Source: Lacticaseibacillus casei DSM 20011 = JCM 1134 = ATCC 393 (GTDB taxonomy: Bacteria > Bacillota > Bacilli > Lactobacillales > Lactobacillaceae). From it: a stretch of DNA of 64,000 nucleotides. The position numbers and the translations under genes are program-made. Of the stretch, positions 18,456 to 63,384 are shown one piece after another. The stretch is from positions 2,356,001 through 2,420,000 of the forward strand of contig NZ_AP012544.1 in the NCBI RefSeq assembly GCF_000829055.1, given 5' to 3'. Position 1 is the first letter of the stretch, and each line of letters opens with the position of its first letter. Under the pieces are notes generated by a model, which was not told the DNA's origin, did no database searches, and saw nothing but the letters and a program-made list of their open reading frames with translations.

Positions 18456-18491
18456 AGCATTTTGCCTGAACATTAGTGATTGGAAATCATA

Positions 18492-41073: not shown

Positions 41074-41171
41074 TTCGTTATCCCTGATCCGGTCGCCGCT
41101 GACCGCGACAAAACAGCGGCATATTTGAAAGGAGCTCTGTTCACAAAACTAAAAATCAAAGGATGATTATT

Positions 41172-41393
41172 ATGAATTTCGGACAAAACTTGTTTAATTG
41201 GTTCACTTCAAACGCCCAGAGCTTGGTACTGATGGCGATTGCCATTATTGGGGTCTACCTCGGCTTCAAGCGTGAATTTTCCAAGCTCATCGGCTTCTTA
41301 GTCATTGCGATCATTGCCGTGGGGCTGGTGTTCAACACCGCTGGCGTCAAAGACGTGCTGCTGAATCTGTTCAATCGCGTCATGGGGGCTTAG
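41172..41393 (+). CDS. TcpD-like small membrane protein of the transfer apparatus
   Basis: A 73-residue protein with two membrane segments (LVLMAIAIIGVYLGF and LIGFLVIAIIAVGLVFN). The MNFGQNLFNWF start and LNLFNRVMGA end match what I know as TcpD-type ICE proteins. It lies before ardA and tcpE, as in related lactobacillus ICEs. AAAGGA is 8 bases before this ATG; an ATG three codons earlier is closer to it. Confidence 0.65.
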   Translation: MNFGQNLFNWFTSNAQSLVLMAIAIIGVYLGFKREFSKLIGFLVIAIIAVGLVFNTAGVKDVLLNLFNRVMGA

Positions 41394-41396
41394 CCT

Positions 41397-41894: not shown

Positions 41895-41902
41895 CTATCT
41901 GA

Positions 41903-41933
41903 GCTGACGCTGCAAAAGGCGTCAGCCTTTTTA
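41903..41933 (+). terminator. Terminator after ardA
   Basis: GCTGACGC pairs with GCGTCAGC and is followed by CTTTTTAT. Confidence 0.75.
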
Positions 41934-41955
41934 TCTCACTACGAAAGGAGATCAC

Positions 41956-42348
41956 ATGAAGAAAGTCAGATCTTACACCAGCATCTGGTCAGTGGAAAAG
42001 GTGCTGTATGCCATCAATGACCTACAACTACCATTTCCAATCACCTTTACCCAGATGACATGGTTCATCGTCAGTCTGTTTGCGATCATGCTGCTGGGCG
42101 ACTTGCCTCCACTGTCATTCATTGACGGCGCATTTCTCAAGCACGTTGGCATTCCTGCCGGGCTCACGTGGTTCATGAGTCAAAAGACCTTCGACAACAA
42201 GAAGCCACTGGGATTCTTGCGGTCGGTGATCAACTATGCCATTACCCCGAAGCTCACCTATGCTGGTAAACCCGTGAAGTCGCAAAAAGAGAAACAAGAC
42301 ACAGCGGTGACCTACGTTTGGAGGTACCACAATGAACTTTCCAATTAA
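41956..42348 (+). CDS. TcpE-family conjugation protein (Orf17-like)
   Basis: A 130-residue membrane protein. It starts KKVRSYTSIWSVEKVLYAI, has a hydrophobic hairpin (MTWFIVSLFAIMLLGDLPPL, GIPAGLTWFM) and ends TYVWRYHNELSN. TcpE proteins are part of the membrane channel and are always next to the VirB4-like gene, which overlaps it here by 17 bases. Confidence 0.88.
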   Translation: MKKVRSYTSIWSVEKVLYAINDLQLPFPITFTQMTWFIVSLFAIMLLGDLPPLSFIDGAFLKHVGIPAGLTWFMSQKTFDNKKPLGFLRSVINYAITPKLTYAGKPVKSQKEKQDTAVTYVWRYHNELSN

Positions 42349-46877: not shown

Positions 46878-47869
46878 AACTTTGGCGCTGGTTAGCTCTT
46901 GCCGCACTCCCAATACTGTTGATTGGCGGTCTGTTCTTTGCAGTCATCGCCTCTGATGATGACGAAGATCAGCCGGCCTCTGCGATCACAGCCGATGCAA
47001 TGAACTTATCCGCTGAAGTCTACAAGCACAAGCTGACGGTTGAAAAGTATTGCAAGGAGTTCGGCATTTCAGACCAGGTGATGGTGATACTTGCCATCAT
47101 GCAGGTTGAATCCGGTGGCAAGGGTGGCGATGTGATGCAAGCTAGTGAATCACTAGGACTGCCGGTCAATACGCTAGATACCGAAGCGTCCATCAAGCAA
47201 GGCGTGAAGTATTTCGCGTCACTACTCAAAAGCATGAAGACTGCCGGTGTAGATCTCAATACCGCGATTCAAAGCTATAACTACGGTGGCGGCTTTATTG
47301 ATCACGTTGCGAAGCACGGCAACAAGTACACGCTGGCGCTGGCGACGTCGTTTGCCAAAGAAAAGTCTGGTGGCAAGAAAGTCACCTATACCAACGCGGT
47401 TGCTAAGGACGGTTGGCGCTACGCCTATGGGAACATGTACTACGTGCCTGTCATTTCGCAATACCTCGTCACTGGTGGCACGAAGTTTGATGACAAGGCG
47501 GTGCAAGCCATCATGGACGAAGCGCTCAAGTATCAAGGCTCACGCTATGTGTTTGGTGGCTCAACGCCATCAACTGGCTTTGACTGTTCCGGGCTGACTA
47601 GTTGGTGCTACGGCAAAGCTGGGATCAAACTTCCCCGCACCGCACAAGCCCAATACGACGCTACGGCACATCTGAACATCAAAGACGCCAAACCAGGCGA
47701 CTTGGTGTTCTTCCACTCAACCTATGACACAGCCGACTATGTGACCCATGTTGGAATCTATGTCGGCAACATGAAGATGTACAACGCAGGTGATCCGCTC
47801 GGCTACGCTGACTTGAACTCAAGCTATTGGCAAGCCCACCTGATCGGCGCTGGGCGTGTGAAGAAGTAG
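46874..47869 (+). CDS. CwlT-like two-domain cell wall hydrolase (Orf14-like)
   Basis: A 331-residue protein that opens the wall for the conjugation channel. A membrane anchor (LALAALPILLIGGLFFAVIA) is followed by a lysozyme/transglycosylase-like domain with the catalytic Glu in IMQVESGGKGGDVMQ. A C-terminal NlpC/P60 endopeptidase domain follows with Cys238 in GFDCSGL, His in THVGIYVG and the usual GDLVFF. It is coupled (ATGA) to the Orf15-like gene. Confidence 0.93.
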   Translation: MKLWRWLALAALPILLIGGLFFAVIASDDDEDQPASAITADAMNLSAEVYKHKLTVEKYCKEFGISDQVMVILAIMQVESGGKGGDVMQASESLGLPVNTLDTEASIKQGVKYFASLLKSMKTAGVDLNTAIQSYNYGGGFIDHVAKHGNKYTLALATSFAKEKSGGKKVTYTNAVAKDGWRYAYGNMYYVPVISQYLVTGGTKFDDKAVQAIMDEALKYQGSRYVFGGSTPSTGFDCSGLTSWCYGKAGIKLPRTAQAQYDATAHLNIKDAKPGDLVFFHSTYDTADYVTHVGIYVGNMKMYNAGDPLGYADLNSSYWQAHLIGAGRVKK

Positions 47870-47878
47870 GTGACGACA

Positions 47879-48412
47879 ATGGATCAAAACGGTATCGGTT
47901 ATTTTGACTGGATGGATCTCATCACTAACACCTACGACGACGCGCTGCAAAAGGCGCACGTTGATCCTAAATTCGGTGACAATCGCGCGCTAAGAAACAA
48001 AGAACTCGACTTCGCTTCCAGCGAATGGGAACGCATCAAGTTCTTCAAACAACGCTTGCCTAACACTGACGATCTCTGCCGCGTTCTCGACCGCTTTGTT
48101 GATCGAATGCCGGAGATGGAATATGGACACCGGCGCGAGTATCGCCTAGCCGTCGCGCATGAAGTGGCCGTTGATCGATGGCTCAAGGGCAAGGTCTTCG
48201 TTCCAGAAGATCGCCAGTATATTCTCGACCGCGAACGCTACTTGGCCGAAGAATATTTCAACAACGATCGTGATCTCGGTCAGTATATCGAAACCGACTA
48301 CGAGGGCTACAAACGTATCTCGCTACAACGCCTGTTCGTGCGCTTTCTCGATATTTACGATGACTTTTACCGCTGCTATGAAATTAGAAAGGACAAGGTG
48401 AACGAACCTTGA
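47879..48412 (+). CDS. ICE protein of unknown function in the transfer operon
   Basis: A 177-residue, charged, probably helical cytoplasmic protein (NGIGYFDWMDLITNTYDDAL, RFVDRMPEMEYGHRREYRLA, KRISLQRLFVRFLDIYDDFY). No family recognised and no Tn916 equivalent at this place that I know. The ATG at 47879 with AGGTGA upstream is preferred over the GTG at 47870. Its position between wall hydrolase and Orf13-like genes implies a transfer-related role. Confidence 0.6.
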   Translation: MDQNGIGYFDWMDLITNTYDDALQKAHVDPKFGDNRALRNKELDFASSEWERIKFFKQRLPNTDDLCRVLDRFVDRMPEMEYGHRREYRLAVAHEVAVDRWLKGKVFVPEDRQYILDRERYLAEEYFNNDRDLGQYIETDYEGYKRISLQRLFVRFLDIYDDFYRCYEIRKDKVNEP

Positions 48413-49332
48413 ATAAAAATAAAAACCGAAAGAACGGCTGGTTCACGAAAAAACCAGCTGAGCCAAAGCCGCCCAAAATTAAACACCACGGATTACGCCG
48501 TCCGGTTACGCTGTTTTGCTGGGCAGTACTGATTGGTAGCACCAGTTTCGGCGTTTACAAGAATATGACCGCCATTGACACCCACACGGTGCATGAAGTC
48601 CAAGTGATCAAGACCAAGGTGATCGACACGCACGCCTTGGCAACCTTCACCACCGACTTCGCAAAAATCTACTACTCGTGGCAACCTAACCACGAAGCGC
48701 TCGACCAACGTCAGAAAGCCTTGCAGCCGTACCTCGTGGCGCAGCTTCAAGCATTGAACGGTGACACCGTGCGAAGTGATATTCCGACGACGGCCACAGT
48801 TAGCGAGGTCAAAGTCTGGGATGTGAGCAAAACTGCCAAAGACACATTTCGCGTGTTATTCACGGTGAAGCAAGATCTTATCAAGGGCAAAGACAGGAAG
48901 TCTGTGACCAGCACCTACACCATTAACATCATGCAAAATAGCAACGGTGATATGGTGATCACCAGGAATCCGACCATCGCTGCGGAACCGGCGACGGCAC
49001 GGATCAAGCTGCCAGATACGCAATCCGACAACTCGGTAGACAGTGCCACCGCAGACGACGTAGCCAAGTTCCTCAAGACGTTCTTCACCTTGTACCCGAA
49101 AAGTGATCGCAACGAACTCAAGTATTACGTCAAGGACGGCACGCGCCCAATCGAACGCAATCTCAAGTTCGTGGAACTGCTAGATCCGGTCTTCAAGCAG
49201 ACGAAGAATGGTCTCACCGTCAACTTATCTGTGAAGTACCTCGACACTGACAATAATATGAGCCAAGTATCGCAATACAGCTTGACCCTTTCCAAGCAAA
49301 GCAACAACTGGATAATCACTGACGGCATCTAA
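48409..49332 (+). CDS. TcpC/Orf13-like conjugation channel protein
   Basis: A 307-residue protein with an N-terminal cytoplasmic tail, one membrane helix (PVTLFCWAVLIGSTSFGVYK) and an external part made of two NTF2-like domains, as in TcpC and Orf13 (VirB8-like). Key segments are VDSATADDVAKFLKTFFTLY and YLDTDNNMSQVSQYSLTLSK. TTG is the likely start with AAGGTG upstream and 4-base overlap with the gene before. A strong terminator closes the transfer operon. Confidence 0.88.
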   Translation: MNKNKNRKNGWFTKKPAEPKPPKIKHHGLRRPVTLFCWAVLIGSTSFGVYKNMTAIDTHTVHEVQVIKTKVIDTHALATFTTDFAKIYYSWQPNHEALDQRQKALQPYLVAQLQALNGDTVRSDIPTTATVSEVKVWDVSKTAKDTFRVLFTVKQDLIKGKDRKSVTSTYTINIMQNSNGDMVITRNPTIAAEPATARIKLPDTQSDNSVDSATADDVAKFLKTFFTLYPKSDRNELKYYVKDGTRPIERNLKFVELLDPVFKQTKNGLTVNLSVKYLDTDNNMSQVSQYSLTLSKQSNNWIITDGI

Positions 49333-49948: not shown

Positions 49949-51379
49949 TTATGAACCGATATTAAGAACACCATCGCTCATTTTCACTATCTGGTCCCAC
50001 GTGTCAATCTGAGTCAGGTCATATATGGTAGCGATTATTAATTGATTTTTAGAAAAATCTGAATGTATCAGCTGTAACATTTTAGTCAGATTCCCAATAT
50101 CAAGTTCACCAGACAAGGGAGAGTCAAGGATGATTGGATATGTCTCTCCAAACCGTTCTTGAACCTCCTTCAACAAAGCCAGTCTGTATGCGAAGACCAG
50201 CAGATGTAACTTAGCACCGCTGTATCTTTTTAAATTGCTAGTAAAGATAAAATCAGAGCCAGTATCAAGCATGTCCTCTACACCGAGTTTTTTAGAAAAT
50301 TCAATGATGCGCGAGTATAGTTTGCTTGAAATATCTGTTTTTTGGAGAATATTCTTAATTTTTATGTTTATTTTCCTTATATTATCAGTATAGTTCTTGA
50401 GAATCTTATCTAAATCGTCCGTGGATATACTTAAATCTGATATTGCCAAATTAAAACGATCCATTTGGCTATCAACGTCAATCAGCGATAACCTGGAATT
50501 TAGTTTCCTCCTAATCTGATTTCCCTCGTCAGATAGTTCATCTAACATTCTCTTATAACGCGCAATTTGAGCCGTAATAAGCGCCTGATTACTATCAAAG
50601 TCAATGATATTTTCTTTTGTAACACGCTCTTCGGTTCCGTCCGTTGTCTTGATACGTACATTCATTCCTTCGATCAACGAGATTAGTCTTGAATTATCTT
50701 TCTTTACTCCTTGCAACTTGGCCATGCTGTTTTGAATTTTTCGAATTTCCATCTCCGTCGAACGTAAGTCGCTCTGAAGCTTATCAATCGGTGACCACTC
50801 AATTGAATCTTCTTGGTCTGAAACTTCTTCACGCGCGGACAAAACCTCACGAATCTGTCTATAGGCTCGCTGCTCACGTTTCAACGAGGCTAATTCTACA
50901 TTTAGATCACTGAGTTTGGAACTTGTCAGCCCCTCAATAAACGTTTCCACACTAAATCTAATATTGCCAACTACCTTCCCCCGGTTTAGAAGAGTCCAGC
51001 CCTTCTCTTGATCAAAATAATGAAGGCCCAAGATACTATCAAGAATCTTCGGTTCTGAAATCGAATAAATAATAGACTGAATTTCCGTGAAGTCATTCTT
51101 GACATTGTATACAGCCTCGTCCTGATCGCCATTCGATACAAATAATGTACTGTCATTTCGATGAATTGTATATTCACTATCACCAACCTCAAGGTCAACG
51201 GAAAGATTCATTTTTGAGAACCTAAGTCCTTTGGTGGAAGGTATGGGATACCCAAGCGTATACAGAAGCAGCCGAATCAAGGTTGTTTTCCCTGCACTAT
51301 TTTTTTCGCTATAAATTAGCGTCGACTGGCCGCCAAACTTAATAGCATTACCGTTAATCGATAAGGACTTAATTTTCAA
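49949..51379 (-). CDS. SMC/ABC-like coiled-coil ATPase, partner of the DUF4297-like nuclease
   Basis: A 476-residue protein with a variant Walker A (YSEKNSAGKTTLIRLLLYTL, Ser replacing the first Gly), coiled-coil stretches in the middle and a C-terminal ATPase half with RYSGAKLHLLVFAYRLALLK (signature-like) and YPIILDSPLSGELD (Walker B-like; Asp-Ser-Pro). It resembles the short SMC-like ATPases of Lamassu and ABC-3C systems. TTG at 51379 is the likely start with AGGAGG 9 bases upstream. It overlaps the nuclease gene by 11 bases, so the two are translationally coupled. In such systems the ATPase senses foreign DNA and controls the nuclease; this is family inference. Confidence 0.65.
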   Translation of the reverse strand: MKIKSLSINGNAIKFGGQSTLIYSEKNSAGKTTLIRLLLYTLGYPIPSTKGLRFSKMNLSVDLEVGDSEYTIHRNDSTLFVSNGDQDEAVYNVKNDFTEIQSIIYSISEPKILDSILGLHYFDQEKGWTLLNRGKVVGNIRFSVETFIEGLTSSKLSDLNVELASLKREQRAYRQIREVLSAREEVSDQEDSIEWSPIDKLQSDLRSTEMEIRKIQNSMAKLQGVKKDNSRLISLIEGMNVRIKTTDGTEERVTKENIIDFDSNQALITAQIARYKRMLDELSDEGNQIRRKLNSRLSLIDVDSQMDRFNLAISDLSISTDDLDKILKNYTDNIRKINIKIKNILQKTDISSKLYSRIIEFSKKLGVEDMLDTGSDFIFTSNLKRYSGAKLHLLVFAYRLALLKEVQERFGETYPIILDSPLSGELDIGNLTKMLQLIHSDFSKNQLIIATIYDLTQIDTWDQIVKMSDGVLNIGS

Positions 51380-52412
51380 GGCCAATCGCCTCCTCAACTG
51401 ATTTGAAATAACTTGCTTTACTAATTACCAACCAGATTATCAATTTGCTCACTTCAAGATCCTGTTCATTGTCCTGTAATCCCAGATCAGCCAATATTTC
51501 TTTTGAAAATTCATTGGTAAATGTATTTTTGAGTTCCTTATGCCTTAATCCACCTAGAGTCTTTTTCTGAAAATCGGAGAATCCCCCGGTTATCTTGGAC
51601 AGAATGGCATAATCATGGCTAATTATTTCTAGATGATCGCGATACTCATTCCTTATAAATTCTTCGGTTTCAACTTCAACATTAAATTCATCAAAGAAGG
51701 TATCGAAATCCGGTGAGTCTATCAACGTTGCCTCAGTATGGGCTGCAAATTGTTGCTTGTCTATCACCTGAGTAGGATTCTCGGTTGAATCCGAAATAAG
51801 TAACCTCCAGGTATTCATTAACTTGGGAGCTTGTTCTGGTTTGATTCCAGCGGTGACGAGGAATTCACGTACCATGTCTTTTAGGGATTGCAGACGAGAC
51901 TCTTCATCTTCTCCGGAATACTGAATCTTTACAATTGTAAGCTGAGTTGGATCAAAATCGGTTTCAAACAACTTTGGATTTTCTTGCTTGGCGTCTTTGA
52001 AATGTTTCTGAATTTTCTTCTGGTTACTTTCTGAGAGGTTCTGGAAAGAAACCTTCATATAAGACGAATCAAAGACGCTTTCTGAAGTCTTACCAAAAGG
52101 TTTACTTGTATTTGTTACGATGGCCAGTTCAGGAATTTCATTGTTTATTTGCCCAGATTCAAGGTCGCTTGAGAGCACTCTAATTGCGTCTCTTACTGAA
52201 CTTGCTGGGATTTGAGCGGCTATATTCTTTACCTCCTTAACCTGAAAGTAATGCATTGAACCATCCTCGTATCTTATATCTATATCATCTTGGCCCTCCA
52301 CGTTGATCCACTCAACTTCCTTTATCCTTAAAATTAGCAAATACAGCGCAGCAAAGTCTTGATAATGAAAGCCTCTCTGAGTCCCCGAAGCGTTTGTACT
52401 GCCCACACTCAT
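51369..52412 (-). CDS. DUF4297/Cap4-like nuclease-domain protein
   Basis: A 347-residue protein. The N-terminus GTQRGFHYQDFAALYLLIL, then VEGQDDIDIRYEDGSMHYFQ and VKEV, fits the DUF4297 type of PD-(D/E)XK nuclease: Glu/Asp followed by a Q-V-K strand near residue 56. The remaining 250 residues have no domain I recognise and may bind the partner ATPase. The ATG at 52412 has GGAGG 7 bases upstream. It lies 48 bases after the type III Res gene on the same strand, so it may belong to the same transcript. Confidence 0.65.
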   Translation of the reverse strand: MSVGSTNASGTQRGFHYQDFAALYLLILRIKEVEWINVEGQDDIDIRYEDGSMHYFQVKEVKNIAAQIPASSVRDAIRVLSSDLESGQINNEIPELAIVTNTSKPFGKTSESVFDSSYMKVSFQNLSESNQKKIQKHFKDAKQENPKLFETDFDPTQLTIVKIQYSGEDEESRLQSLKDMVREFLVTAGIKPEQAPKLMNTWRLLISDSTENPTQVIDKQQFAAHTEATLIDSPDFDTFFDEFNVEVETEEFIRNEYRDHLEIISHDYAILSKITGGFSDFQKKTLGGLRHKELKNTFTNEFSKEILADLGLQDNEQDLEVSKLIIWLVISKASYFKSVEEAIGLEN

Positions 52413-52460
52413 TCCGCCACCTCCAATCCGTAATGACAATTGACTTAAGCCAGGCGCTTT

Positions 52461-55433
52461 CTATCTTGCCAACCCTCGTTCGTCTCTTAACACCTTAAAC
52501 GTCACCCCTGTATCCAGAGCCTCAAAATGCGCCTTCCCAGACCGAAGCTGCAACCGCTCGTGACCACGCAATGCTTCCTCATCAGGATTGGCTTTAGTAT
52601 CCGCAACAAAATAAAGCCGCGTTCCGGCATCTTCCTCATACAAGATCGCCCAGTCAGGATTGTATGTTCCAAGCGGTGTCTTCACCTTGAACCAGTCAGG
52701 CATCTTAATATAGAACCTGACATTATCATCCTGCTCACAGTCCCGCGCGAATTGCTTTTCAGTGTCGGAGTCAGTGACGATGCAATTATAGACGGTTTTC
52801 CCGCCATCAACGGCCACGGCGTTACCTTCTTGTCCGTCGTGGTCCAAATAAGCATAAAGCGTCTCTGTCGTGAATAAGCGCTGTTCGTACTCGTCTCCGG
52901 TCTTTCGGTATTCAATCCCGTCAACCATCAGCTGACGTTTCTCCCAGTTAATCAACTTGGCAGCCTGCGTCATGTAGCTTTGTGGGTTCGCCTCAAACGC
53001 AGCTAAACTATCAACGCCGTTCAATATTTTGGCTAATGTTCGCCGAGTCAATTGTGTCTCATTCTGCAGGAATGTAAGAATATCAGGAAGCTCATATGGC
53101 GTCTGATCACTGCTCGATAGGCGTCGTTCGTGCGGATCATGTATTTCCATCCCGGCAGCAGTATTTTGAATCAGTGCCTTGGAGTAAGTGAAGTTTCCTT
53201 TGTGAGTCGTGATATTATTTAGTTTTTTCACTGCGCGATCAATCAGAGCTTCTGTGTCAAAATGCACACGATAAGTCGTCTTTTCCTTTATCCGGTCCCA
53301 AAGAGCAAGAAAATCATCACTCAGTGCTTCCTTATTCACATCCACCTCATGCCGATCAGCGCGGTTCCGGATTTCTAGAGACTTGACGTGTTTCTCTGCA
53401 ATCGCCAGGACGGGTGCCTCAAATGGTGCATATTCTTCTGGTAGTTCTATTTGCTTATTCTTAATCGCACTTCTTAGCTTATCAGTGGCCTTGTGAGCGG
53501 TGTTCAAAAAGCCATCGTCTGTTAAGGCTTGCACTAGAGCTTTGGAACGTTTTTTACCGAGCACTTCTTGTTCACCAGTAAATTCGTCTTTACTCAGAAC
53601 AATCGTTGCAAATGTGTCAGGCCCAAATACGCCGAACTTAACACCATCGTCGGCATATTCTTTCTGTAAGGTCTCGGCAAAGTCTTTATAGCTCTCGTTC
53701 GCCATCACCGTCAGCGTATTGACTTCGAAACCAGGGATTCGCCGCCCGGATTGATCAACAGCAATGCGCAGACCACGACCCACTTTTTGTCGCTTAGTCA
53801 TCGTGTCCTTCGTGTCCGCCAACGTACAGATCTGAAAAATATTAGGATTATCCCAGCCTTCACGAAGCGCGGAGTGAGAAAAGACGAAACGTAATTTGTT
53901 AACGCTTGCCACCGCCCCAGTATCGGGATCGTATGTTGTCAGTAACCCCTCTTTGTCTTTCATAATCATACTGTACGTTGATTCATCCGCTGCCGTATCT
54001 CCACGCGTATTTTTGAAGCGTTTCTTACCGTCACGCGAAAAATATCCATCATGTACTTCTGAGACTGGCACCTTGGCATCACGGAGGCCGCTAAATTTTT
54101 TGGAATGAATTAAGGCGTTATATTCTTCTTCGAAGATCTTCGCATACTTACCAAGACTCGTGGTGCCATCATCGTTGTATTCACGGTAGTTCTCGACCTT
54201 ATCCAAGAAAAACAGGCTGAGCACCTTTACTGGAATCTTGGCCTTCTGAAAGCGCAGTTCCTTCTCTAAGTGTTCCTGGATTGTCTGTTTGATTTGGTCG
54301 CGTTTCAAAGCTTCATCTTCTGCATTCGAAGAGGCTAAGGTTATCTCACTTGGCTCGCCAGAAAAATAGACGGTTTCAGCCCCCGGAGTCGTATCTATAT
54401 CAGTGACAAATCCAACTTTACTGTATGTCTGAAGTTTAGTCTTGCTGGCAATATCCGTATCCTTCTTCACGGTTATGATTGCCTTATCAGCGTCTTGTTT
54501 AGTCTTCTTATAGACCTCAATTCGGGCAGAGATAGCGCCTTTCTTATTGCTCGTACTTACGAGACGCAAATATGCTCGATTGCCGTCCTCATCCATCTGG
54601 ACACCAGAAACCTCAATTTGTTTAACCAATTGTTGGTCATACGCCTCTACCGGCCCTAGTCGGTAAATAGTTGGATAACTTTCCTTGTGAGTGGCTGAGT
54701 ACCTGAAACCAATACAAGGATTGAGCCTATTAATCGCAGCCTTCGAATTGGGAGTCCCATCTACCGACTGTGGTTCGTCAATAATCAATATAGGCCTGGT
54801 CTGTGCCAGAAAGTCAATCGGACGATCACCACCCAGCTTGTCGTTCTCCTGATTCATGACGTTAGTATCCTTATTGAACGCTTGAATGGTCGTGATCATG
54901 ATTTGAATGTTGCTGGAGCTTGCAAACTCCCTCACTCGGTTGAGATCATTGCTGGAATAGACAAATGAGTCATAGATTGCACCATTGTATTGCGATGATA
55001 GATAACCACGCGTTATCTCGATAGACTTCTGCACCCCTTCACGTATGGCCACCGAGGGTACCACAATGATAAACTTCAAGAAGCCGTATTGTTTATTGAG
55101 CTCAAGAATCGTCTTCAAATAAACTAGCGTCTTCCCTGTGCCAGTCTCCATTTCAATATTGAAAGACGGGAATTGTTTATTCTCGCCCGTCAGTTCATCA
55201 TCTGGGGCAATTCCGTTGCTAATCTGAATCTGCTGCATGTTCTTAATTAATTCAGCACGAGTAATATTGACGCTGTTGCCGACCCCAATCCCGTCTTCAG
55301 AAAAGAATGCGCCTTGTGCGTTTGAATTCGACAAAGTGAAGTTAGCTTGCCGAACCGTTTGACCTTTAAATAATAGGGTGGCAGCTTGGACTGCTTGAAG
55401 CTGGTACTCCAGCTCATCAAACTTAATCTTCAT
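52461..55433 (-). CDS. Type III restriction enzyme Res subunit
   Basis: A 990-residue helicase-nuclease. Walker A is EMETGTGKTLVYLKT near residue 95, Walker B ILIIDEPQSVDG near 216, with SATHKESYP and the late helicase motif KRQKVGRGLRIAVDQ. The C-terminal nuclease site is YNPDWAILYEEDAG then YFVADTKA, a PD-(D/E)XK core. With the Mod subunit upstream it cleaves DNA lacking the cognate methyl mark. The ATG at 55433 has GGGGG 8 bases upstream; it starts 12 bases after mod ends. Confidence 0.92.
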   Translation of the reverse strand: MKIKFDELEYQLQAVQAATLLFKGQTVRQANFTLSNSNAQGAFFSEDGIGVGNSVNITRAELIKNMQQIQISNGIAPDDELTGENKQFPSFNIEMETGTGKTLVYLKTILELNKQYGFLKFIIVVPSVAIREGVQKSIEITRGYLSSQYNGAIYDSFVYSSNDLNRVREFASSSNIQIMITTIQAFNKDTNVMNQENDKLGGDRPIDFLAQTRPILIIDEPQSVDGTPNSKAAINRLNPCIGFRYSATHKESYPTIYRLGPVEAYDQQLVKQIEVSGVQMDEDGNRAYLRLVSTSNKKGAISARIEVYKKTKQDADKAIITVKKDTDIASKTKLQTYSKVGFVTDIDTTPGAETVYFSGEPSEITLASSNAEDEALKRDQIKQTIQEHLEKELRFQKAKIPVKVLSLFFLDKVENYREYNDDGTTSLGKYAKIFEEEYNALIHSKKFSGLRDAKVPVSEVHDGYFSRDGKKRFKNTRGDTAADESTYSMIMKDKEGLLTTYDPDTGAVASVNKLRFVFSHSALREGWDNPNIFQICTLADTKDTMTKRQKVGRGLRIAVDQSGRRIPGFEVNTLTVMANESYKDFAETLQKEYADDGVKFGVFGPDTFATIVLSKDEFTGEQEVLGKKRSKALVQALTDDGFLNTAHKATDKLRSAIKNKQIELPEEYAPFEAPVLAIAEKHVKSLEIRNRADRHEVDVNKEALSDDFLALWDRIKEKTTYRVHFDTEALIDRAVKKLNNITTHKGNFTYSKALIQNTAAGMEIHDPHERRLSSSDQTPYELPDILTFLQNETQLTRRTLAKILNGVDSLAAFEANPQSYMTQAAKLINWEKRQLMVDGIEYRKTGDEYEQRLFTTETLYAYLDHDGQEGNAVAVDGGKTVYNCIVTDSDTEKQFARDCEQDDNVRFYIKMPDWFKVKTPLGTYNPDWAILYEEDAGTRLYFVADTKANPDEEALRGHERLQLRSGKAHFEALDTGVTFKVLRDERGLAR

Positions 55434-55445
55434 TACAAGCACCCC

Positions 55446-57305
55446 CTATATCGACTGAATATCTGCATATTGAAAACCCGCATCGTTTAAAATTTCAATC
55501 GCGTTTAGTTTTTCACTATCGTCTTTAAAACCATTGTCTTGAAATACAACCGTAGCCCGTTCCATGTTAGAACGACGAAAGTCGTCAGCGACTGCAGCAG
55601 CAGTAGATAACGTAATTGTTTGATTACCAAGAACAACATAAAGTACGCCACCGGCGACAATGTACAGATCAGCGCCATCAATGTGCTGATCTTCAACTGG
55701 ATAGCTAAGATCTAGTCCTTGTTTTAGTATAACTTCAGTTAGGATATCGTCATTAGAGCGACCCGGTATAAAATTATCTTCTAAAAGATTGATGTTGGAA
55801 ACCGAAGATTCCGTATTCCACTGTGCAAAATTTGATTCTGAAATCGAATAAACCCTAAAGCCTCGGTCAAAAACAGCTTTAGAATTTTCTTTGGCAATCG
55901 TTGTCCCTGCAATTCTAATTCGTTCTTCACCAATTTCGGTTAATTTATGATAACCGGCCTTATAGGCTCCACTGCCTGCATCTAGTTCTTCAGCGATTTG
56001 TACTAAAATAAATCTTCTCTGCCCATGATCTTCAGCATTTAATTCCATTACTGCCTGTGCTGTGGTTGCACTTCCTGAAAAGAAATCCATAACTATTGCA
56101 TTCTTCGAATTCGACCATATTAGAAATCTCTTAATCAACGCAACTGGCTTAGGGTAATCAAATACCTTAAATCCAAACATGCTCATTAACTCTTTAGTAC
56201 CAGTCTTCGTTGTCCCTGCATCCAGTAGAATAGAACTCGGTGTCTTTACATCACCTTTTGCTATTCTTTCTTTGTAAAACATCTTCCTCTTGGGGGCGGA
56301 ATCTCCGCGAAGTCCAAATGCGATTCTTCCATCAGCAAGTAATTCTTTGAAAGTCTTCTCATTGTATGCCCAAATACGTCCATTCACGGGCATATATGAC
56401 TCGCCTGTTGCTGGATTCACAATGGGATAAACTGTTGCGCCACCGGTATGGTTTGCATCAATTGGAACTAATTTCCATGGTCCTCTCGGATCATCGTCCG
56501 GGTTGCTGTACTCAGTTGGATCAATTGGATCTCCACCAAAATCTAAGTTACTTTTAGATTTTGCAAATATCAAAGTGTGATTATGGTTTAGGGAAATTTC
56601 ATGATCGTTAGAAATGGACGTGCGCGACTGCCAAATAACGTCGTTTAGAAAATTTTGCTCACCAAAAATCTCGTCCATCATCTTTTTTAGATTGGCTTGT
56701 TCACCATCATCAATGCTGACAAAGATCACGCCGTCATCTCTCAAAAAAGTTTGCGCCAATTTCAACCGACTATACATCATGTTTAACCAATCAGTGTGGA
56801 ACTTTCCATTTGACTCTGTATTGGTTGCGTAATGTGAACCCAAAGAATCAGTCTGGTTAGTCTCAGCCAGATAAGAATCTGTATCAGTGGTGAAGTCATC
56901 GTGATACACAAAATCCTTGCCCGTGTTGTAAGGTGGATCAATATAGATTACCTTCACCTTGTGAGCGTAACTCTTCTGAATAATCTTTAGAGCGTCTAAG
57001 TTATCTCCCTCAATGTAGATATTGCCTGTATTCTCCCAGTCTAACGAAGATTGTTTCTGCGGCAGGAGTGTCTTCATCGTTGGCTGTTGAGCGGTTTGCA
57101 TTGCGGCAAGTTTCCCATGCCACGTAAACTTATACTTCTCTTCAGATTCATCCACCTCTTCACCGAGAATCGTTTTCAACACGTCAAAATCAATCTTTCC
57201 CTCAGTAACAACCTCCGGGAAAAGGGCCTTTAATTGATTAATATTCTCTTCTGTGAGATTAGATGAAGTTCCCTCCATTGGCTTAAAGCTACGATCATTT
57301 GTCAT
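55446..57305 (-). CDS. Type III DNA methyltransferase Mod subunit
   Basis: A 619-residue adenine methyltransferase giving sequence recognition to the type III enzyme. Motif IV is VIYIDPPYNTGKDF near residue 120, and motif I is DFFSGSATTAQAVMEL near 407, the order expected for beta-class Mod proteins. The region between and around holds the target recognition domain. The ATG at 57305 (MTNDRSFKP) has AGGGAG upstream and is 13 bases after the DUF4391 gene. The recognition site cannot be predicted here. Confidence 0.92.
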   Translation of the reverse strand: MTNDRSFKPMEGTSSNLTEENINQLKALFPEVVTEGKIDFDVLKTILGEEVDESEEKYKFTWHGKLAAMQTAQQPTMKTLLPQKQSSLDWENTGNIYIEGDNLDALKIIQKSYAHKVKVIYIDPPYNTGKDFVYHDDFTTDTDSYLAETNQTDSLGSHYATNTESNGKFHTDWLNMMYSRLKLAQTFLRDDGVIFVSIDDGEQANLKKMMDEIFGEQNFLNDVIWQSRTSISNDHEISLNHNHTLIFAKSKSNLDFGGDPIDPTEYSNPDDDPRGPWKLVPIDANHTGGATVYPIVNPATGESYMPVNGRIWAYNEKTFKELLADGRIAFGLRGDSAPKRKMFYKERIAKGDVKTPSSILLDAGTTKTGTKELMSMFGFKVFDYPKPVALIKRFLIWSNSKNAIVMDFFSGSATTAQAVMELNAEDHGQRRFILVQIAEELDAGSGAYKAGYHKLTEIGEERIRIAGTTIAKENSKAVFDRGFRVYSISESNFAQWNTESSVSNINLLEDNFIPGRSNDDILTEVILKQGLDLSYPVEDQHIDGADLYIVAGGVLYVVLGNQTITLSTAAAVADDFRRSNMERATVVFQDNGFKDDSEKLNAIEILNDAGFQYADIQSI

Positions 57306-57318
57306 AATGTTCTCCCTG

Positions 57319-58023
57319 TTAGTTTGACAATAATTGATTAAGTAATTTTTTCTTCTCAGCAAGCTTTAGCTGCAATTCAACTCTCAAATTAAGCTGGTCT
57401 TCTTTCATGACTTCATCATGAAGCGTCTCGATCTCAGCCTGCAAACGCAAAACTTCAGAGTAACTCTTAATATCGATGTCCATCGGTGATTTATTAAAAT
57501 TGGCTTGAAGTGTCACCGATAAGACCCGATTTTGAATTCCCTTATAATATTCAAAGAGCGTTGTTCCAGGTTCTTTTGTAGGGACCAGCATTGAATCCAT
57601 AAAATGATTGCTCAGGATGCTTGAAATCACGACTCGTTCTATGCCCATCTCATGAGCCTTGCCATAACTATATTCTGCAACACCAACTGTGATTCGATTG
57701 TCAAGGTCAAAGAAAATGATTAGTGGATACGGAATAGCAGAATTAATCTGGCGAAATATTGCTTCTTCTCGGTCACTGTTCCTGACCCGGACGTAGAACA
57801 CTTCGATTTCTTCAACTGGTGTCTCACCATCATTAGTAATCGTAAATCCGCTATTATTCGGCCGCACACTACTCAACCAATAGACCGTGTCGACATCTGA
57901 CTGTATCAGTCCTTGCCCCTTTGATGATGACATATGTTCATAAAACTGACGCTTAGGAACGTTTCGGTTGATTATTGTCGGCTGCGGAAGGCGCAATATC
58001 TTAATTAGATCACTTGTTTCCAT
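57319..58023 (-). CDS. DUF4391-family protein
   Basis: A 234-residue protein that fits DUF4391: RNVPKRQFYEHMS, VYWLSSVRPNNSGFTI, EEIEVFYVRVRN and FRQINSAIPYPLIIFF, with a charged coiled-coil end. Its biochemical role is unknown. The family occurs between an SNF2-type helicase and Mod/Res genes, which is the arrangement here: it overlaps the helicase gene by 14 bases and mod follows after 13. It may be an adaptor within that complex. GGAGG precedes the ATG at 58023. Confidence 0.75.
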   Translation of the reverse strand: METSDLIKILRLPQPTIINRNVPKRQFYEHMSSSKGQGLIQSDVDTVYWLSSVRPNNSGFTITNDGETPVEEIEVFYVRVRNSDREEAIFRQINSAIPYPLIIFFDLDNRITVGVAEYSYGKAHEMGIERVVISSILSNHFMDSMLVPTKEPGTTLFEYYKGIQNRVLSVTLQANFNKSPMDIDIKSYSEVLRLQAEIETLHDEVMKEDQLNLRVELQLKLAEKKKLLNQLLSN

Positions 58024-61000
58024 CGATGGCCTCCTTAACAATCAAAAATGAAATCAGTTCAAAGTCGCTTTCCTGTGCAACTGCTTCGGCAGCATCCATA
58101 GCAGTCCCACCTGGGGTAAAGAGCGAATTAATGCCCACCTCAATTTTCTTTCCTTTAATTGACTGGATTGCCTCATTCAGCAGTTCAGAGTAGTGACTCA
58201 TATCGCGTCCACCATTGGTCTCGGCATTAAAACGCGTAACTACGTCCTCTAAAATACTAGTTTGGCCCAGACACAAACGTTTAAAGTAATCAAGAATCTG
58301 CTTTGCATACATGTAATTTAACTTCACTTCTCCGTCCGTCGACATGTATACCAGCAAGAATGGGGCAAGACTATTATCCTGACGTTGCGTCTCCCCAGAT
58401 TGACGCAACACAAGAATTGCTCCGGGTACTGCTTCATTTAATAGGCTTGCAGAGGTGACCGCGTACATCCCCTTGGGAGCGCGGTTTAACTCTGCTTCAT
58501 GTTCCTTTAAAGCTCCCGTCAAATCCTGTTTGAACTCATTGAAAGTTAAATCTGTGATTGAGATGGAGCCATTCATGTCTTCGAGATCCACCACCTCATT
58601 CTGCAATTGTTGTAGCTGTTCTCGCCGATAATCGAGGTCCGTATGTTCGCGTTCAGTCTGAAGGACATTATCATCCCCAGTCGCAGACACGTCCAACAGC
58701 GTCATTCTGCTCCGCACCCTGTCTTCCAAATCAAGGTAGACGTCAAGATCAACATCTGGCCAGAAATTAACAAGTTGAATTTGAGAATTCTTGGATCCGA
58801 TGCGATCGATTCGACCAAAGCGCTGAATGATTCGCACCGGATTCCAATGAATGTCATAGTTTACGAGGTAGTCCGCGTCCTGCAAGTTTTGGCCTTCAGA
58901 GATAGCATCGGTAGCAATCAGGACATCAATTTCTTCTGGTGCACGTCTATCGTTGGCATCGCGCTGCTTCGCTAACGGGGCGAAGTTAAGCAGTATATCG
59001 TTCATGTCCGTTACTTTCACGCCAGCCATATTTGTCTTATTCTTCGACTGACCGCCTGTAATCAACGCTGTATTAAGTCCGTACTTTGTTTTGATAGTTC
59101 CCGCTAAATTATCGTACAAATAAGCGGCTGTATCCGCGAAAGCCGTGAAAATAATAATCTTCTTATTATTGGCGTTGAGCGGGTGCTGCCATTTTTCTTC
59201 CATCAGTCCGTATAAATCAGCAAGTTTTGCATCGTTCTCTGGTTTAACTGTGGTTGCATCGTTTGCAAGGTTTCGAAGAATGTTTCGATCATCCTCGAGA
59301 TCCTGACGCCAGCGAATTCTATCAATATCACCTATTAAGATTTTGACCTTTTTACCTACCGCTTCAGCATCAAACGCATCCGCGATATCGTCATCATCTT
59401 CGAAAGCCGTGATGCTAGCCAGTTCGTCAACGTTCTGGTTAGCCTCATCAATTTTTCTGATTGCATCGTCAACGGAATCCAGCATTCTCTGAAGTGTCAG
59501 CCCAAATGAATTGACTGAACTTTCAAGCCGCTTCAATAAGTTGGTTCGAATTAAGCCCGTTAAGGCCTGCTCACGATCTTCTTGCCGGAATGTGGCATTG
59601 CCTCTTCCAGTCTTAGTATCGTAAAGAGCGGCATACTTAGCCTTTTTATTCGGCATAACGTATGCCATTGGCTGAAATAATGCTAACCGCAACCGTCCAA
59701 TCGATTCGTACGTATCGTTGAGTGGCGGGAACTGTCCTGATAAATCGATTTGAGACTTGATGGTCTTTGGTCGTAGTCGTATTGGAAAGCTGCCGAGTGC
59801 GGCAGAATCATAGAATTTTTCAATATGCTTCCGACTACGGGCAATCGTAAATCTATCTAGTATCTCAAAATAGCCAGGATTAACCATGTCTAGGAAACGC
59901 TGGGTGGTGCGCTTGCTCGGCTGAAGTAGTGACCACTCGTTAAAACGCGTTTGAGCGCGACGCAACTCCTCGTCGATATTTGCAACCCCGTACTTCCGTA
60001 GTGCATGCTCGTCGCCCTCTGTAATGAAGCTAATCTGGTTTTTAATGTCATTCATGCGATTGTTGACCGGTGTTGCTGATAGCATCAGTACCTTCGTTTT
60101 TGTGCCTTGCTTGATAATGTCTTCCATCAAACGCTCATAGCGACTCTGACGGCCATCGTAATGATTATTGTTACGGAAATTATGTGACTCATCAATCACG
60201 ACAAGATCATAATTCGCCCAGTTCAACGTGGACAAATTGATATCCCCAGAATAGCCTGAGGTACGACTTAAATCGGTATGATTCAGAACGTCAAAGCCAA
60301 ATCGGTCAGCAGCCAGAAAGTTCGTCTTAGTGTTCTGCGTCCACGTCACCCAGTTCTCGCGTAAACGTTTCGGTGCCAGTACCAAGACGCGATCGTTTCT
60401 CAATTCGTAATACTTAATAACTGCTAGGGCTGAGAAGGTCTTCCCCAAGCCAACCGAATCCGCTAACAGTGCACCGTTGTACTTCTCTAGTTTTTCAATC
60501 AGGCCAACAACACCATCTCGCTGAAATGGATACAGGGCATTCCACACCTTTGTCTCTTTGAAACCGGTACCCTTTCGAATGATATTGTCTTCGTCTAATT
60601 CGTCAAGGCGATCGTTAAATAAATGGTAGAGCGACACGAAATAGAGCCACTCCGGGCTCTTCTCCTGTGCCATTTTTTGAATCCTATCGATGACCGACTG
60701 GTCAACTGAGACAGTTTTGCTTTTGTCGTTCCAGGCTGCATTAAACGAGTCTGTCATGCTCGCATTCACCTCAGACAGATTCATTAATGCTGTCATTGGC
60801 GTAAGATTGCTCGACTCCGTTAAACCGATACCATCACCCGTAAAGCTAAAAGTGCTCTGAATGACAAAGGAGCTTGCACCCTCTGTATTACCATTGAGAA
60901 TCAACATCGGGGCCATTGTCGTTTGCCCTTTAATCTTCTTGAACTCAATCTTTCGTTTAATCATCTTTGAAATATCTTTAGCGATGGACGCATTCATCAT

Positions 61001-61294
61001 CTGATTGCGAAGTCGAATCTCATAATTATTGCCAGCAATCTGATTCCGTTTCTGGGCAATCTCATAACGCCGTAAATAATCAGATACTGGTTGTTCAAAA
61101 ATATCTTCGATGAGGATGATCCTAACCCGACTCAAATTTCTAAGCTGATCCATCAACGCATTTAAGGCAAAGATAGAAAAGGCTGGCGTTACAATGTCTA
61201 GGGAACTCCCTGAGGCAATACTGGTCTGCAACAAATGTAGAACAGTATTGTCACCTTGATTTGTAATAACTTTAACTGGGTTACTCTCTGACAT
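58010..61294 (-). CDS. SNF2-type helicase with PLD-like N-terminal region
   Basis: A 1094-residue protein. The N-terminal about 200 residues look like a phospholipase D-type fold (VKIIEDIFEQP-like strand seen as RIILIEDIFEQPVSDYLRRY; SSFVIQSTFSFTGDGIGL then ESSNLTP), but no HxK catalytic pair is visible. The SNF2 motor has Walker A LLADSVGLGKTFSALAVI near 278, DEAD-box equivalent VVIDESHNFRN near 365, SATPVNNR, and later VNYDIHWNPVRIIQRFGRID. A C-terminal extension follows. AGAGG is 7 bases before the ATG. It heads the tightly packed defence gene row. Confidence 0.85.
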   Translation of the reverse strand: MSESNPVKVITNQGDNTVLHLLQTSIASGSSLDIVTPAFSIFALNALMDQLRNLSRVRIILIEDIFEQPVSDYLRRYEIAQKRNQIAGNNYEIRLRNQMMNASIAKDISKMIKRKIEFKKIKGQTTMAPMLILNGNTEGASSFVIQSTFSFTGDGIGLTESSNLTPMTALMNLSEVNASMTDSFNAAWNDKSKTVSVDQSVIDRIQKMAQEKSPEWLYFVSLYHLFNDRLDELDEDNIIRKGTGFKETKVWNALYPFQRDGVVGLIEKLEKYNGALLADSVGLGKTFSALAVIKYYELRNDRVLVLAPKRLRENWVTWTQNTKTNFLAADRFGFDVLNHTDLSRTSGYSGDINLSTLNWANYDLVVIDESHNFRNNNHYDGRQSRYERLMEDIIKQGTKTKVLMLSATPVNNRMNDIKNQISFITEGDEHALRKYGVANIDEELRRAQTRFNEWSLLQPSKRTTQRFLDMVNPGYFEILDRFTIARSRKHIEKFYDSAALGSFPIRLRPKTIKSQIDLSGQFPPLNDTYESIGRLRLALFQPMAYVMPNKKAKYAALYDTKTGRGNATFRQEDREQALTGLIRTNLLKRLESSVNSFGLTLQRMLDSVDDAIRKIDEANQNVDELASITAFEDDDDIADAFDAEAVGKKVKILIGDIDRIRWRQDLEDDRNILRNLANDATTVKPENDAKLADLYGLMEEKWQHPLNANNKKIIIFTAFADTAAYLYDNLAGTIKTKYGLNTALITGGQSKNKTNMAGVKVTDMNDILLNFAPLAKQRDANDRRAPEEIDVLIATDAISEGQNLQDADYLVNYDIHWNPVRIIQRFGRIDRIGSKNSQIQLVNFWPDVDLDVYLDLEDRVRSRMTLLDVSATGDDNVLQTEREHTDLDYRREQLQQLQNEVVDLEDMNGSISITDLTFNEFKQDLTGALKEHEAELNRAPKGMYAVTSASLLNEAVPGAILVLRQSGETQRQDNSLAPFLLVYMSTDGEVKLNYMYAKQILDYFKRLCLGQTSILEDVVTRFNAETNGGRDMSHYSELLNEAIQSIKGKKIEVGINSLFTPGGTAMDAAEAVAQESDFELISFLIVKEAIDGNK

Positions 61295-61411
61295 ACGCTT
61301 ACCTCTTTCCGACTAATTTCTACTTGTTGGTGTAAACACTAATATGTGCTCGGTACGCGACCCATTGAATATCGGGAAGTACAATTCACAACAGAATGCA
61401 AACCCGAGTAT

Positions 61412-61624
61412 TTATTTTCGGTTCTCGGACTTAATACTAACGATGTCGCCGATATCAACATTTAGAGCTTCACCAATTTTAATGAGTGACTCCATCGAAA
61501 CAGGCTGATCTTTTCCTAACTTTGCGATGACATTTGCGCTCACACCAGCTTGCTCTTTCAACTGTGTTTTATTGATGTCTTGGTCAATTAAGGTCTTCCA
61601 GAGTCCTTTATATGAAATCGTCAT
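61412..61624 (-). CDS. XRE-family helix-turn-helix regulator
   Basis: A small Cro/CI-type DNA-binding protein of about 70 residues (NKTQLKEQAGVSANVIAKLG, then MESLIKIGEALNVDIGDIVS). It lies 117 bases upstream of the helicase gene on the same strand and probably controls the defence genes, or the divergent ICE regulatory genes, through the gap to its right. GAGGTGGC precedes two adjacent ATGs; the second (61624) has better spacing. Confidence 0.85.
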   Translation of the reverse strand: MTISYKGLWKTLIDQDINKTQLKEQAGVSANVIAKLGKDQPVSMESLIKIGEALNVDIGDIVSIKSENRK

Positions 61625-61627
61625 CAT

Positions 61628-62087: not shown

Positions 62088-62486
62088 ATGAGTAGCGAAC
62101 GTGAAGTGTCAAAGATGTTCATCAGGTATGTTCAAGACGGGTTAAGAAACGAACGCATCGATCGATACCGCGCCGGTCTTAGACTGATTAATACAACACC
62201 GCTTGAAGACTGGCTACTTGAAGAAATCCGGGAGCCTTACCATCTCCAAGATTTCACCTTGACCCTTGAGGAAATTGCAGAGTTGGAGAATTTTGTTGAC
62301 GACGAGCGGTTGTCAAAGGCCGTCGCAACTCTTTCAACAGCTGATAAGATGGTTTTGTATCAGTATTACTACGATGAACTCAACGACGTGGAAATCGGTA
62401 GTCAGGTAGGTATAACTAGCCAAGGAGCAAATAAGCGCAGGCGGCGCGCATTGCAAAGGATTAAGGCAGCATACGAAAATATGTAG
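62088..62486 (+). CDS. Sigma-70 region 4-like ICE regulator
   Basis: A 132-residue protein whose C-terminus is a sigma region 4-type helix-turn-helix (LSTADKMVLYQYYYDELNDV, EIGSQVGITSQGANKRRRRA). It corresponds in place to Orf7-type regulators of Tn916-like elements, which help switch on excision and transfer genes. AGGAGG is well placed before the ATG. It is followed by the Orf8-like gene. Confidence 0.8.
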   Translation: MSSEREVSKMFIRYVQDGLRNERIDRYRAGLRLINTTPLEDWLLEEIREPYHLQDFTLTLEEIAELENFVDDERLSKAVATLSTADKMVLYQYYYDELNDVEIGSQVGITSQGANKRRRRALQRIKAAYENM

Positions 62487-62506
62487 CGCGTGCGGAGGAG
62501 TATTCA

Positions 62507-62779
62507 ATGCATTACACACAGATCGATAACCTGATCCCGGTTATCTTGGCAGCGCAGGGTGGAGATGATGAGGCAATGTCCCAACTACTAATAATGTTCA
62601 ATCACGACTTCAACCGTGAGGCGGCATTTGGAAAAAGCTATGTCGATCCGGATTTGAAGCAAGAACTTCAAATTAAATTTGTGTACATCGTCAAACACTT
62701 CGACGTTGAAAAGCATTTGGCAGAGTCGTCCACAAACTCAAGTCGGAAACTCAAGTTCACGTCATTAAATAATAATTAA
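62507..62779 (+). CDS. Orf8-like small helix-turn-helix protein
   Basis: A 90-residue protein (LIPVILAAQGGDDEAMSQLL, DPDLKQELQIKFVYIVKHFD) resembling the Tn916 Orf8/HTH_16 type that pairs with the sigma-like protein. GGAGGAG precedes the ATG. A terminator follows. Confidence 0.7.
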   Translation: MHYTQIDNLIPVILAAQGGDDEAMSQLLIMFNHDFNREAAFGKSYVDPDLKQELQIKFVYIVKHFDVEKHLAESSTNSSRKLKFTSLNNN

Positions 62780-62808
62780 TTTCGGATATGGTTTCATTTC
62801 CGAACTCA

Positions 62809-62843
62809 CCTGTCGTCTGATATATCAGAGGCAGGTTTTTATT
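62809..62843 (+). terminator. Terminator after the orf8-like gene
   Basis: CCTGTCGTCTGATA pairs with TATCAGAGGCAGG and is followed by TTTTTATTT. Confidence 0.85.
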
Positions 62844-62849
62844 TGGCCC

Positions 62850-63070
62850 GCCATGTCCTTTGATAACTTAATAGCATCATTCAGCAACGAAGGCTCCGCA
62901 ACGCCATGACCTCTCACGAGCGAGCGACTAACCCAGTGAGCCGGATACTTGTACGTCACCCTGACGAAACGAGGGAAAGAGGCTCTCTTTGAGATTCTCG
63001 ATAGCCGATTGGAATCGGGCTGAATGATGAACTGTTCTTCACAACATCAGTTTCGCCAACACTGCGAAGA
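62850..63070 (+). other. Structured non-coding leader upstream of xis
   Basis: No protein frame is convincing. Visible stems include CTCAC...GTGAG, AAAGAG-GCT-CTCTTT and GCCGATT-GG-AATCGGGC close together. GC-rich sequence with stacked hairpins just ahead of the excisionase could be a regulatory RNA or a recombinase-binding region. Confidence 0.45.
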
Positions 63071-63084
63071 AGGAGGTGTGTCAT

Positions 63085-63384
63085 ATTTCAGCGCAAGCAA
63101 TAGAAGCGCCAATCGATTTTCCAATGGACGATCAGAACGTGATTGCGATTCGTAACGCTCTGTCTACCTTGTTTCTCGATGAAGTTAACAGGGCTCGCGA
63201 AGAACAATCACAGCATGATCGGTACCTGTTGAAGATGGAGTTGTGCGCGTACTTGAAGATTTCTAACAATACCTTGGACAAGTGGATTGAGCTTGGCCTA
63301 CCAAGAATCAACATCTGTGGTGTTGTTCGCTATGATCGCGACGCAGTTGATGGATGGCTTCGCAAACGCGTTGAAGGATGGTAA
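63085..63384 (+). CDS. xis: Excisionase-like helix-turn-helix protein (Xis), unusual start
   Basis: A protein of about 99 residues with a C-terminal winged-helix like excisionases: LLKMELCAYLKISNNTLDKW, IELGLPRINICGVVRYDRDA and VDGWLRK. It would direct integrase toward excision of the ICE. GGAGG ends at 63076 and the in-frame codon at normal spacing is ATT at 63085; the GTG at 63076 lies inside the ribosome site. TCATATTTCAGC may derive from TCATGATTTCAGC by loss of a G. An ATG at 63124 lacks a ribosome site. Confidence 0.75.
   Translation: MSAQAIEAPIDFPMDDQNVIAIRNALSTLFLDEVNRAREEQSQHDRYLLKMELCAYLKISNNTLDKWIELGLPRINICGVVRYDRDAVDGWLRKRVEGW

Follow-up and report, generated by a model that had tools for sequence, protein, structure and literature searches.

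Type III restriction-modification (R-M) systems of the EcoP15I type combine a methyltransferase, Mod, bearing DPPY motifs with a restriction subunit, Res, composed of an SF2 motor and a C-terminal PD-(D/E)xK nuclease, and cut DNA that carries two oppositely oriented unmethylated sites. Here we describe a row of seven minus-strand genes within a 64,000-nucleotide stretch of Lacticaseibacillus casei ATCC 393 (contig NZ_AP012544.1, positions 2,356,001 to 2,420,000; hereafter the window) that resembles such systems in its Mod and Res genes, but differs from them in that a SNF2 helicase with a PLD-like domain and a DUF4391 gene precede Mod/Res in nearly fixed order. The row ends in a nuclease/ATPase pair reminiscent of Lamassu, where a Cap4-type nuclease likewise stands beside an SMC/Rad50-like ATPase. 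We consider it probable (about 0.72) that the row represents a conserved extended type III cassette, carried as cargo of an integrative and conjugative element (ICE), to the 3' end of which an independent second-line module, the PADLOC candidate PDC-M46, has been appended.

Nesting in defence operons as such is already published: going by the accessible portions of the papers, back-up effectors are nested in BREX (PMC12839542) and Dnd (PMC10853773), and DarTG2 is embedded in type I R-M (PMC12255303). Papers citing the guilt-by-embedding preprint by Payne et al. (2024) trace the PADLOC PDC candidates to it (PMC12988326, PMC12255303, PMC10855318). Our locus shares with the embedded-defence operons a second defence module inside or beside an R-M-like operon; the host differs, being here a four-gene type III cassette that is not named in the accessible text of the literature searched. 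DUF4391 appeared in that literature in a single paper, where it is listed in a table; the study does not concern R-M. A preliminary description, made from the letters of this DNA, knew of no described system with exactly this gene set; the nuclease/ATPase pair is a described candidate, PDC-M46.

The gene row and its protein domains

The row comprises the following genes, with open reading frames (ORFs) called by a simple script rather than a gene finder:

61412–61627, minus strand: XRE-type regulator of 71 amino acids (aa), upstream of the helicase (ORF)
58010–61294, minus strand: SNF2-type SF2 helicase of 1094 aa with an N-terminal PLD-like domain, cassette gene 1 (Pfam, PADLOC)
57319–58023, minus strand: DUF4391 protein, cassette gene 2 (Pfam PF14335, 1.4e-32)
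55446–57305, minus strand: type III Mod methyltransferase, cassette gene 3 (N6_N4_Mtase 5.4e-33; PADLOC MTase_III 5.3e-210)
55991–56647, minus strand: core segment of Mod, about residues 201–520, in which the DNA match to both sister ICEs (see below) breaks
52461–55433, minus strand: type III Res with SF2 motor and PD-(D/E)xK nuclease, cassette gene 4 (PADLOC REase_III 2.5e-289)
51369–52412, minus strand: M46A, Cap4/DUF4297-type nuclease, pair gene 1 (PADLOC PDC-M46A 6.3e-65)
49949–51379, minus strand: M46B, SMC/Rad50-like ATPase, pair gene 2 (PADLOC PDC-M46B 4.9e-134)

The seven minus-strand genes and their spacing, as set out in the preliminary description, are borne out by the ORF list of the window. 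With the listed starts, the gaps from helicase to ATPase are -14, +13, +12, +48 and -11 bases (the DUF4391 frame has its ATG at 58023 and stays open to 58041), and XRE and helicase genes lie 117 bases apart, as computed from coordinates. Six adjacent genes of the same direction with short overlaps would fit a single transcript. A scan for minus-strand promoters or terminators found none between 52412 and 52461, which says little because the scan itself performed at chance level (30 promoter-like hits versus 26.7, sd 4.9, in shuffled sequence, and 9 terminator-like hits versus 10.2, sd 3.6). The XRE protein, a probable regulator of the row, gives a match of 67 bits to an NCBIfam VanU-type regulator, under the cut-off of 150; copies that are 97% and 100% identical occur in the two sister ICEs, and a 63% identical copy is found directly upstream of the cassette in one further locus (L036).

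For all six genes from helicase to ATPase, Pfam, PADLOC or both agree with the domain labels assigned beforehand, although the PLD-like part of the helicase turned out to be without an HKD motif. This helicase is recognized by Pfam SNF2-rel_dom and Helicase_C and by the PADLOC model C3a139 'HKD+Snf2' (1.4e-130), and its Walker A motif GLGKT and its DESH motif are 98–100% conserved across 89 sequences. A loose search for H-x-K-x4-6-D/E matched 8 of the 89 N-terminal regions, the window not among them, and only one (L069) has its match at a likely PLD position (window residue 133; H in 20/89). Because the H-x-K-D motif is absent from the window protein, its PLD part is predicted not to be a nuclease. 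Identification of the helicase as DrmD of DISARM was rejected at 157.6 bits versus an equivalog cut-off of 610; more generally, its NCBIfam matches pointing to DISARM, BREX, Dpd or Pbe all lay far under their cut-offs, and 'HKD+Snf2' was the best PADLOC match, well above both the DrmD and the BrxH model.

Mod is an N6/N4 methyltransferase with the DPPY and FxG motifs expected of type III enzymes, here DPPYNTG and DFFxG, conserved over 69 sequences. Res joins an SF2 motor to a C-terminal PD-(D/E)xK nuclease in the form PD...DxK (P929-D930...D948-x-K950); it matched RE_endonuc at 9.2e-34 and the EcoP15I restriction subunit in PDB entry 4zcf at 8.3e-53. The DUF4391 protein may act as a partner or adaptor.

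Apart from their PDC-M46 scores, the members of the adjacent, overlapping pair give matches to LmuA (PADLOC, 2.6e-12) and Cap4_nuclease (Pfam, 3.5e-10) in the case of M46A, and to LmuB (PADLOC, 7.1e-25) as well as, under the Pfam cut-offs, AAA_23 and SMC_N in the case of M46B. Residues E39, D43, Q57 and K59 of M46A are invariant in 16/16 aligned sequences, some of them near-identical to one another. In M46B, Walker A G36-K37, S393-G394 and D425-S426-P427 are present in 13/13 aligned sequences, the latter motif being a Walker B that reads DSP throughout and thus lacks the catalytic glutamate after the aspartate. A Walker B without this glutamate is a further likeness to Lamassu, since LmuB carries an E-to-Q exchange there for which low or absent ATP hydrolysis was suggested (available part of PMC10586767). 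The differences are several: M46B has S instead of E where LmuB has Q, its open frame measures 482 aa versus about 650, it contains no cysteine and hence no zinc hook (present in many, not all, Lamassu ATPases; same source), and no gene separates the pair where LmuC would sit. Lamassu was rejected as the family of the pair, as the LmuA and LmuB models score far below the M46 models; in PMC11811056, a single PDC-M46 call and a Lamassu call made by DefenseFinder comprise identical proteins.

M46A has no solved relative (one match, at E 0.6, is taken as chance). Taking family, class and phylum of the compared genomes, here and below, as we infer them from genome G110 (see below), M46A matches occurred in 7/397 family genomes, counting the window genome and two sisters, and in 7/72,556 plasmid records, and M46B at E values up to 1e-20 in 6/398 genomes of the class, the window genome included; among viral contigs, no relatives of M46A were found.

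Conservation of the cassette and its cargo

DUF4391 was found in 11/301 family genomes. At the nine other family loci, the order helicase, DUF4391, Mod was kept in 9/9 and Res followed in seven, the remaining two ending at a contig edge before Res; one of the loci reaches only 0.9 kb past Res. A profile search with the helicase alignment returned 583 relatives; the 80 best were retained and stem, by their record titles, from many bacterial phyla as well as from one archaeon. Seeds for the helicase HMM and for DUF4391 were taken from the family loci themselves. Across the resulting 90 loci (the window and L035–L123, with the sister-ICE locus L012 omitted), helicase, DUF4391, Mod and Res stood in this order in 73, a core gene being split over two ORFs in some of them (e.g., L035, L047, L037). 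Fourteen of the 17 loci without the full row were cut by contig ends, the others being L107, L119 and L063. As a side observation, tandem Mod genes occur in one cassette at L038 (5663–9523, one Mod in two ORFs) and at L112 (13899–17649).

A second sample started from the Res nuclease domain PF19778, detected in 42/249 genomes of the phylum, and covered 38 Res regions out of 54 places. Here the row was present in 16/38 regions, with DUF4391 detected in 15 of these; 11/38 had a strong-scoring Res without a full-length helicase (owing to contig ends, fragments, or truly none), 8/38 a weak-scoring Res, and in 3/38 no Res was detected. At least one genome is shared by the two samples, L070 and L154 apparently being the same. 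The four-gene row is thus an arrangement commonly met with in this Res clade. This strengthens the earlier notion of an extended type III R-M system, the extension being a conserved four-gene cassette. Its recurrence across many bacterial phyla, with the gene order almost unchanged, suggests that helicase and DUF4391 are partners that have been overlooked in many systems annotated as type III R-M.

Second modules inside the cassette are frequent. In a strict count (helicase of at least 900 aa; gaps of at least 400 bases, filled to at least 60% by same-strand ORFs of at least 150 aa; sister-ICE copies L012 and L044 left out), nested same-strand genes were present somewhere from helicase to Res in 30/70 rows, predominantly in the Mod-Res interval (26 rows), and in 6/14 rows of the second sample; a looser count with same-strand ORFs of at least 120 aa gave 33/73. 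Many of the nested genes belong to known or candidate defence systems. Overlaps of 4 bases with cassette genes are frequent among them, and this, together with the 48-base distance between Res and M46A in the same direction, suggests selection for joint expression. The cargo was named for representatives among 89 ORFs, as follows:

SIR2+HerA: L041, between Mod and Res, inside a full row
CBASS cyclase and S_4TM protein: L079, between helicase and DUF4391, inside a full row
SoFic: L089, inside a full row
YhcG/PDC-S02: L059, inside a full row
Bro-N/PDC-S13: L061, inside a full row
RhuM: L075, inside a full row
Schlafen AlbA_2: L081 and L058, inside full rows
AAA_21+DUF4276 (HEC-01A): L111, inside a full row
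Abi_2/AbiD: L099, inside a full row
PDC-S06, S05, S04 and S45: L160, L163 and L175, second sample, inside full rows
SIR2+HerA: L117, after Res or at a cut locus
GmrSD_N protein: L080, after Res or at a cut locus
KwaB+KwaA: L036, after Mod at a contig end
AAA_13/PDC-S06: L063, without Res, and L171, after Res

The L080 GmrSD_N protein has relatives, by clustering, within L089, L095, L098 and L108; L112 carries one downstream of Res, and L077 one downstream of the helicase. In three genomes (L171, L172 and L173), Res is followed after 24 bases by two genes, of about 441 and 763 aa; in L171, PADLOC gave no match for the first of these, and the second is the PDC-S06 gene. Five of the 30 Pfam-scanned ORFs remained without a match, and PADLOC matched cargo or downstream proteins in four sets at 4/6 (a seventh, part of a helicase, being excluded), 8/10, 5/10 and 6/6 (preselected by Pfam hits). 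The first gene in L084 and a 697-aa gene in L079 matched nothing in Pfam or PADLOC; two genes in L094 and one in L091 were without a Pfam match.

The pair in relation to the cassette

In the relatives inspected, the pair and the Mod/Res row are separate, an outcome that the preliminary description had itself named as speaking against their belonging together. None of the four cassette genes was seen near M46 in 14 M46 loci outside the ICE (0/14, within the stretch examined; five of the seven plasmid loci included), which sets the present PDC-M46, appended to a type III cassette, apart from the others. Conversely, M46 was near the cassette in 0/9 of the other family DUF4391 loci, seven of which reach Res.

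The same ICE with the same row was found in two further genomes, G110 (its locus being L044; presumably Lapidilactobacillus wuchangensis) and G315 of the window's genus. Relative to the window, helicase and Res are 98% and 99% identical in these sisters, DUF4391 87% and 93%, and Mod 71%. M46A is broken there by other genes after about residue 121, the flanks of the interruption overlapping in 12 bases of window sequence (52063–52074), presumably a target duplication, and a segment of 1.9 kb (50064–51948) is deleted, with which M46A is lost past about residue 155 and M46B as far as about residue 446. Both sisters retain open frames for helicase, DUF4391, Mod and Res, with ratios of non-synonymous to synonymous substitution rates (dN/dS) of 0.04–0.07 for the helicase, 0.25–0.34 for DUF4391, 0.13–0.22 for Res and about 0.25 for Mod, the latter value mixing in a replaced segment. 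To judge from these frames, the cassette row persists without M46. The DNA match of Mod to the sisters ends at 55991 and restarts at 56647; Mod residues 201–520 show 22–70% identity to the sisters versus 87–100% elsewhere, and in this region (about residues 201–520) the two sisters share 100% identity. Since the difference is confined to this segment and the sisters agree in it, a swapped target-recognition domain is probable. The window and sister ICEs, which differ in the Mod recognition segment and in whether M46 is intact or broken, offer a natural comparison.

The preliminary description had left the choice between a stacked back-up and one composite system. Because 30/70 cassette rows carry nested genes, that is, because second modules in or after the cassette recur, the stacked second line is favored. 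M46, which stands alone in the other places inspected and is broken in two sister ICEs, looks like a swappable backup rather than a part of one machine. This interpretation builds on the gene order, the domains, the active-site residues and the conservation of the cassette, and further on the free-standing M46 pairs, the decay of M46 in sisters whose cassette is open, and the nested genes elsewhere. Judging by the protein families involved, Mod would methylate host sites, and Res with Mod would cut unmodified phage DNA, providing discrimination of self from non-self; helicase and DUF4391 may partner Mod/Res in target handling or licensing. M46B might sense abnormal DNA, either ends or replication intermediates, and then unleash M46A for indiscriminate DNA degradation if a phage escapes or blocks restriction. 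PDC-M46 would then constitute an autonomous second line that is expressed jointly with the row, and co-transcription from the XRE side would place both layers under common control.

Several points weigh against this interpretation. In the Res motif, D replaces the E of 64/67 full-length relatives, occurring only in three ICE copies (window, L012, L044), and the nuclease activity might therefore be altered. The DUF4391 protein has no solved relative (five matches with E values of 0.11–0.77 are taken as chance). The nesting rate stands without an adequate control, as only 8 Res regions fall outside the Res clade by their weak Res score, and 80 of the cassette loci are those of the best among 583 helicase relatives. 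Two loci, L107 and L119, have an alternative gene order with Mod/Res before the helicase, and at the archaeal L063 Mod is fragmented and Res was not seen. As the M46 junctions are common to both sisters, the decay probably reflects one event, and hence one natural experiment. Finally, a 48-base gap followed by an overlap on one strand would also be expected of a co-regulated functional unit.

A bolder proposal, which we advance tentatively and as the less probable reading, is that SNF2(pseudo-PLD)-DUF4391-Mod-Res forms a distinct and widespread R-M subtype whose helicase and DUF4391 detect that restriction has stalled or been blocked and license a nested or appended second-line module. The modules so licensed would be M46 in the window and SIR2-HerA, CBASS, Fic, Kiwa and others elsewhere, a claim just as tentative. 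The nested cargo provides natural swaps, the same chassis with a different second line, bearing on whether failure of R-M triggers abortive defence.

That the two modules arrived separately and merely came to lie together in the cargo region of the ICE, their shared direction being functionally meaningless, seems unlikely to us. Cargo beside TcpC is indeed quite different in related ICEs, and the window holds more candidate defence genes (PDC-S06 at 36089–38416, AbiLi-like at 25016–26368), as accumulation by itself would produce; yet M46A begins only 48 bases past Res in the same direction, and the 4-base overlaps of nested with cassette genes point to selection for joint expression. We regard as very improbable a single composite system of six cooperating proteins, in which the M46 pair would depend on the Mod/Res/helicase complex for detecting that restriction has failed: the common strand, the gaps of -14 to +48, the lack of a visible terminator between Res and M46A (in a scan at chance level) and the recurrence of attached or nested modules in the cassette would agree with it, but free-standing M46 pairs, cassettes without M46 as the rule, and a cassette still open in two sister ICEs after M46 broke leave an obligate composite system unsupported.

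The mobile element and neighboring genes

The flanks of the row contain a Tn916-like gene set (by Pfam: TcpC, AAA_10, NlpC/P60, Rep_trans, a sigma-like regulator and HTH_16):

38690–49332, plus strand: Tn916-like ICE transfer module with Rep_trans, AAA_10 ATPase, lysozyme-like/NlpC-P60 and TcpC (Pfam)
62088–63384, plus strand: ICE regulatory genes for sigma-70 region 4, HTH_16 and HTH_17 proteins (Pfam)
63446–64714: ORF of 422 aa beyond the regulatory genes, reaching outside the window (flanking ORF)

We take the AAA_10 ATPase to be of the VirB4 type, the HTH_17 protein (its match lying just under the Pfam cut-off) to be excisionase-like, and the 422-aa ORF to be integrase-like, with an rpsI-like gene next to it. 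As transfer genes lie on one side of the row and sigma/HTH genes on the other, the row is, by this arrangement, cargo of a Tn916-like ICE, one among several. VirB4 relatives were found in 24/301 family genomes. Seven genomes whose VirB4 is 94–98% identical provided eight regions lying downstream of this gene, and the cassette was seen in 0/8; one region (L232) is cut right after TcpC, and the closing sigma gene is visible in four (L226, L228, L229 and L231; 55–74% identical). In another, L230 of genome G058, matches to BrxL, PglZ and PglX plus a GmrSD-like gene (3–14185) adjoin TcpC, where the row lies in the window.

The PDC-S06 candidate in the window (6e-226; minus strand) is an AAA_13 protein located between two ICE genes; at its place, the sister ICE locus L013 has a different ORF of 900 aa (16118–18820). 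The AbiLi-like ATPase (7.9e-79; plus strand) is a further abortive-infection candidate. At 40339–41073 on the plus strand, an ORF gives a weak N6_N4 methyltransferase match (0.0014, under the cut-off) and is followed by a second same-strand ORF; the two resemble parts of one gene, within the ICE, that has been split or has decayed.

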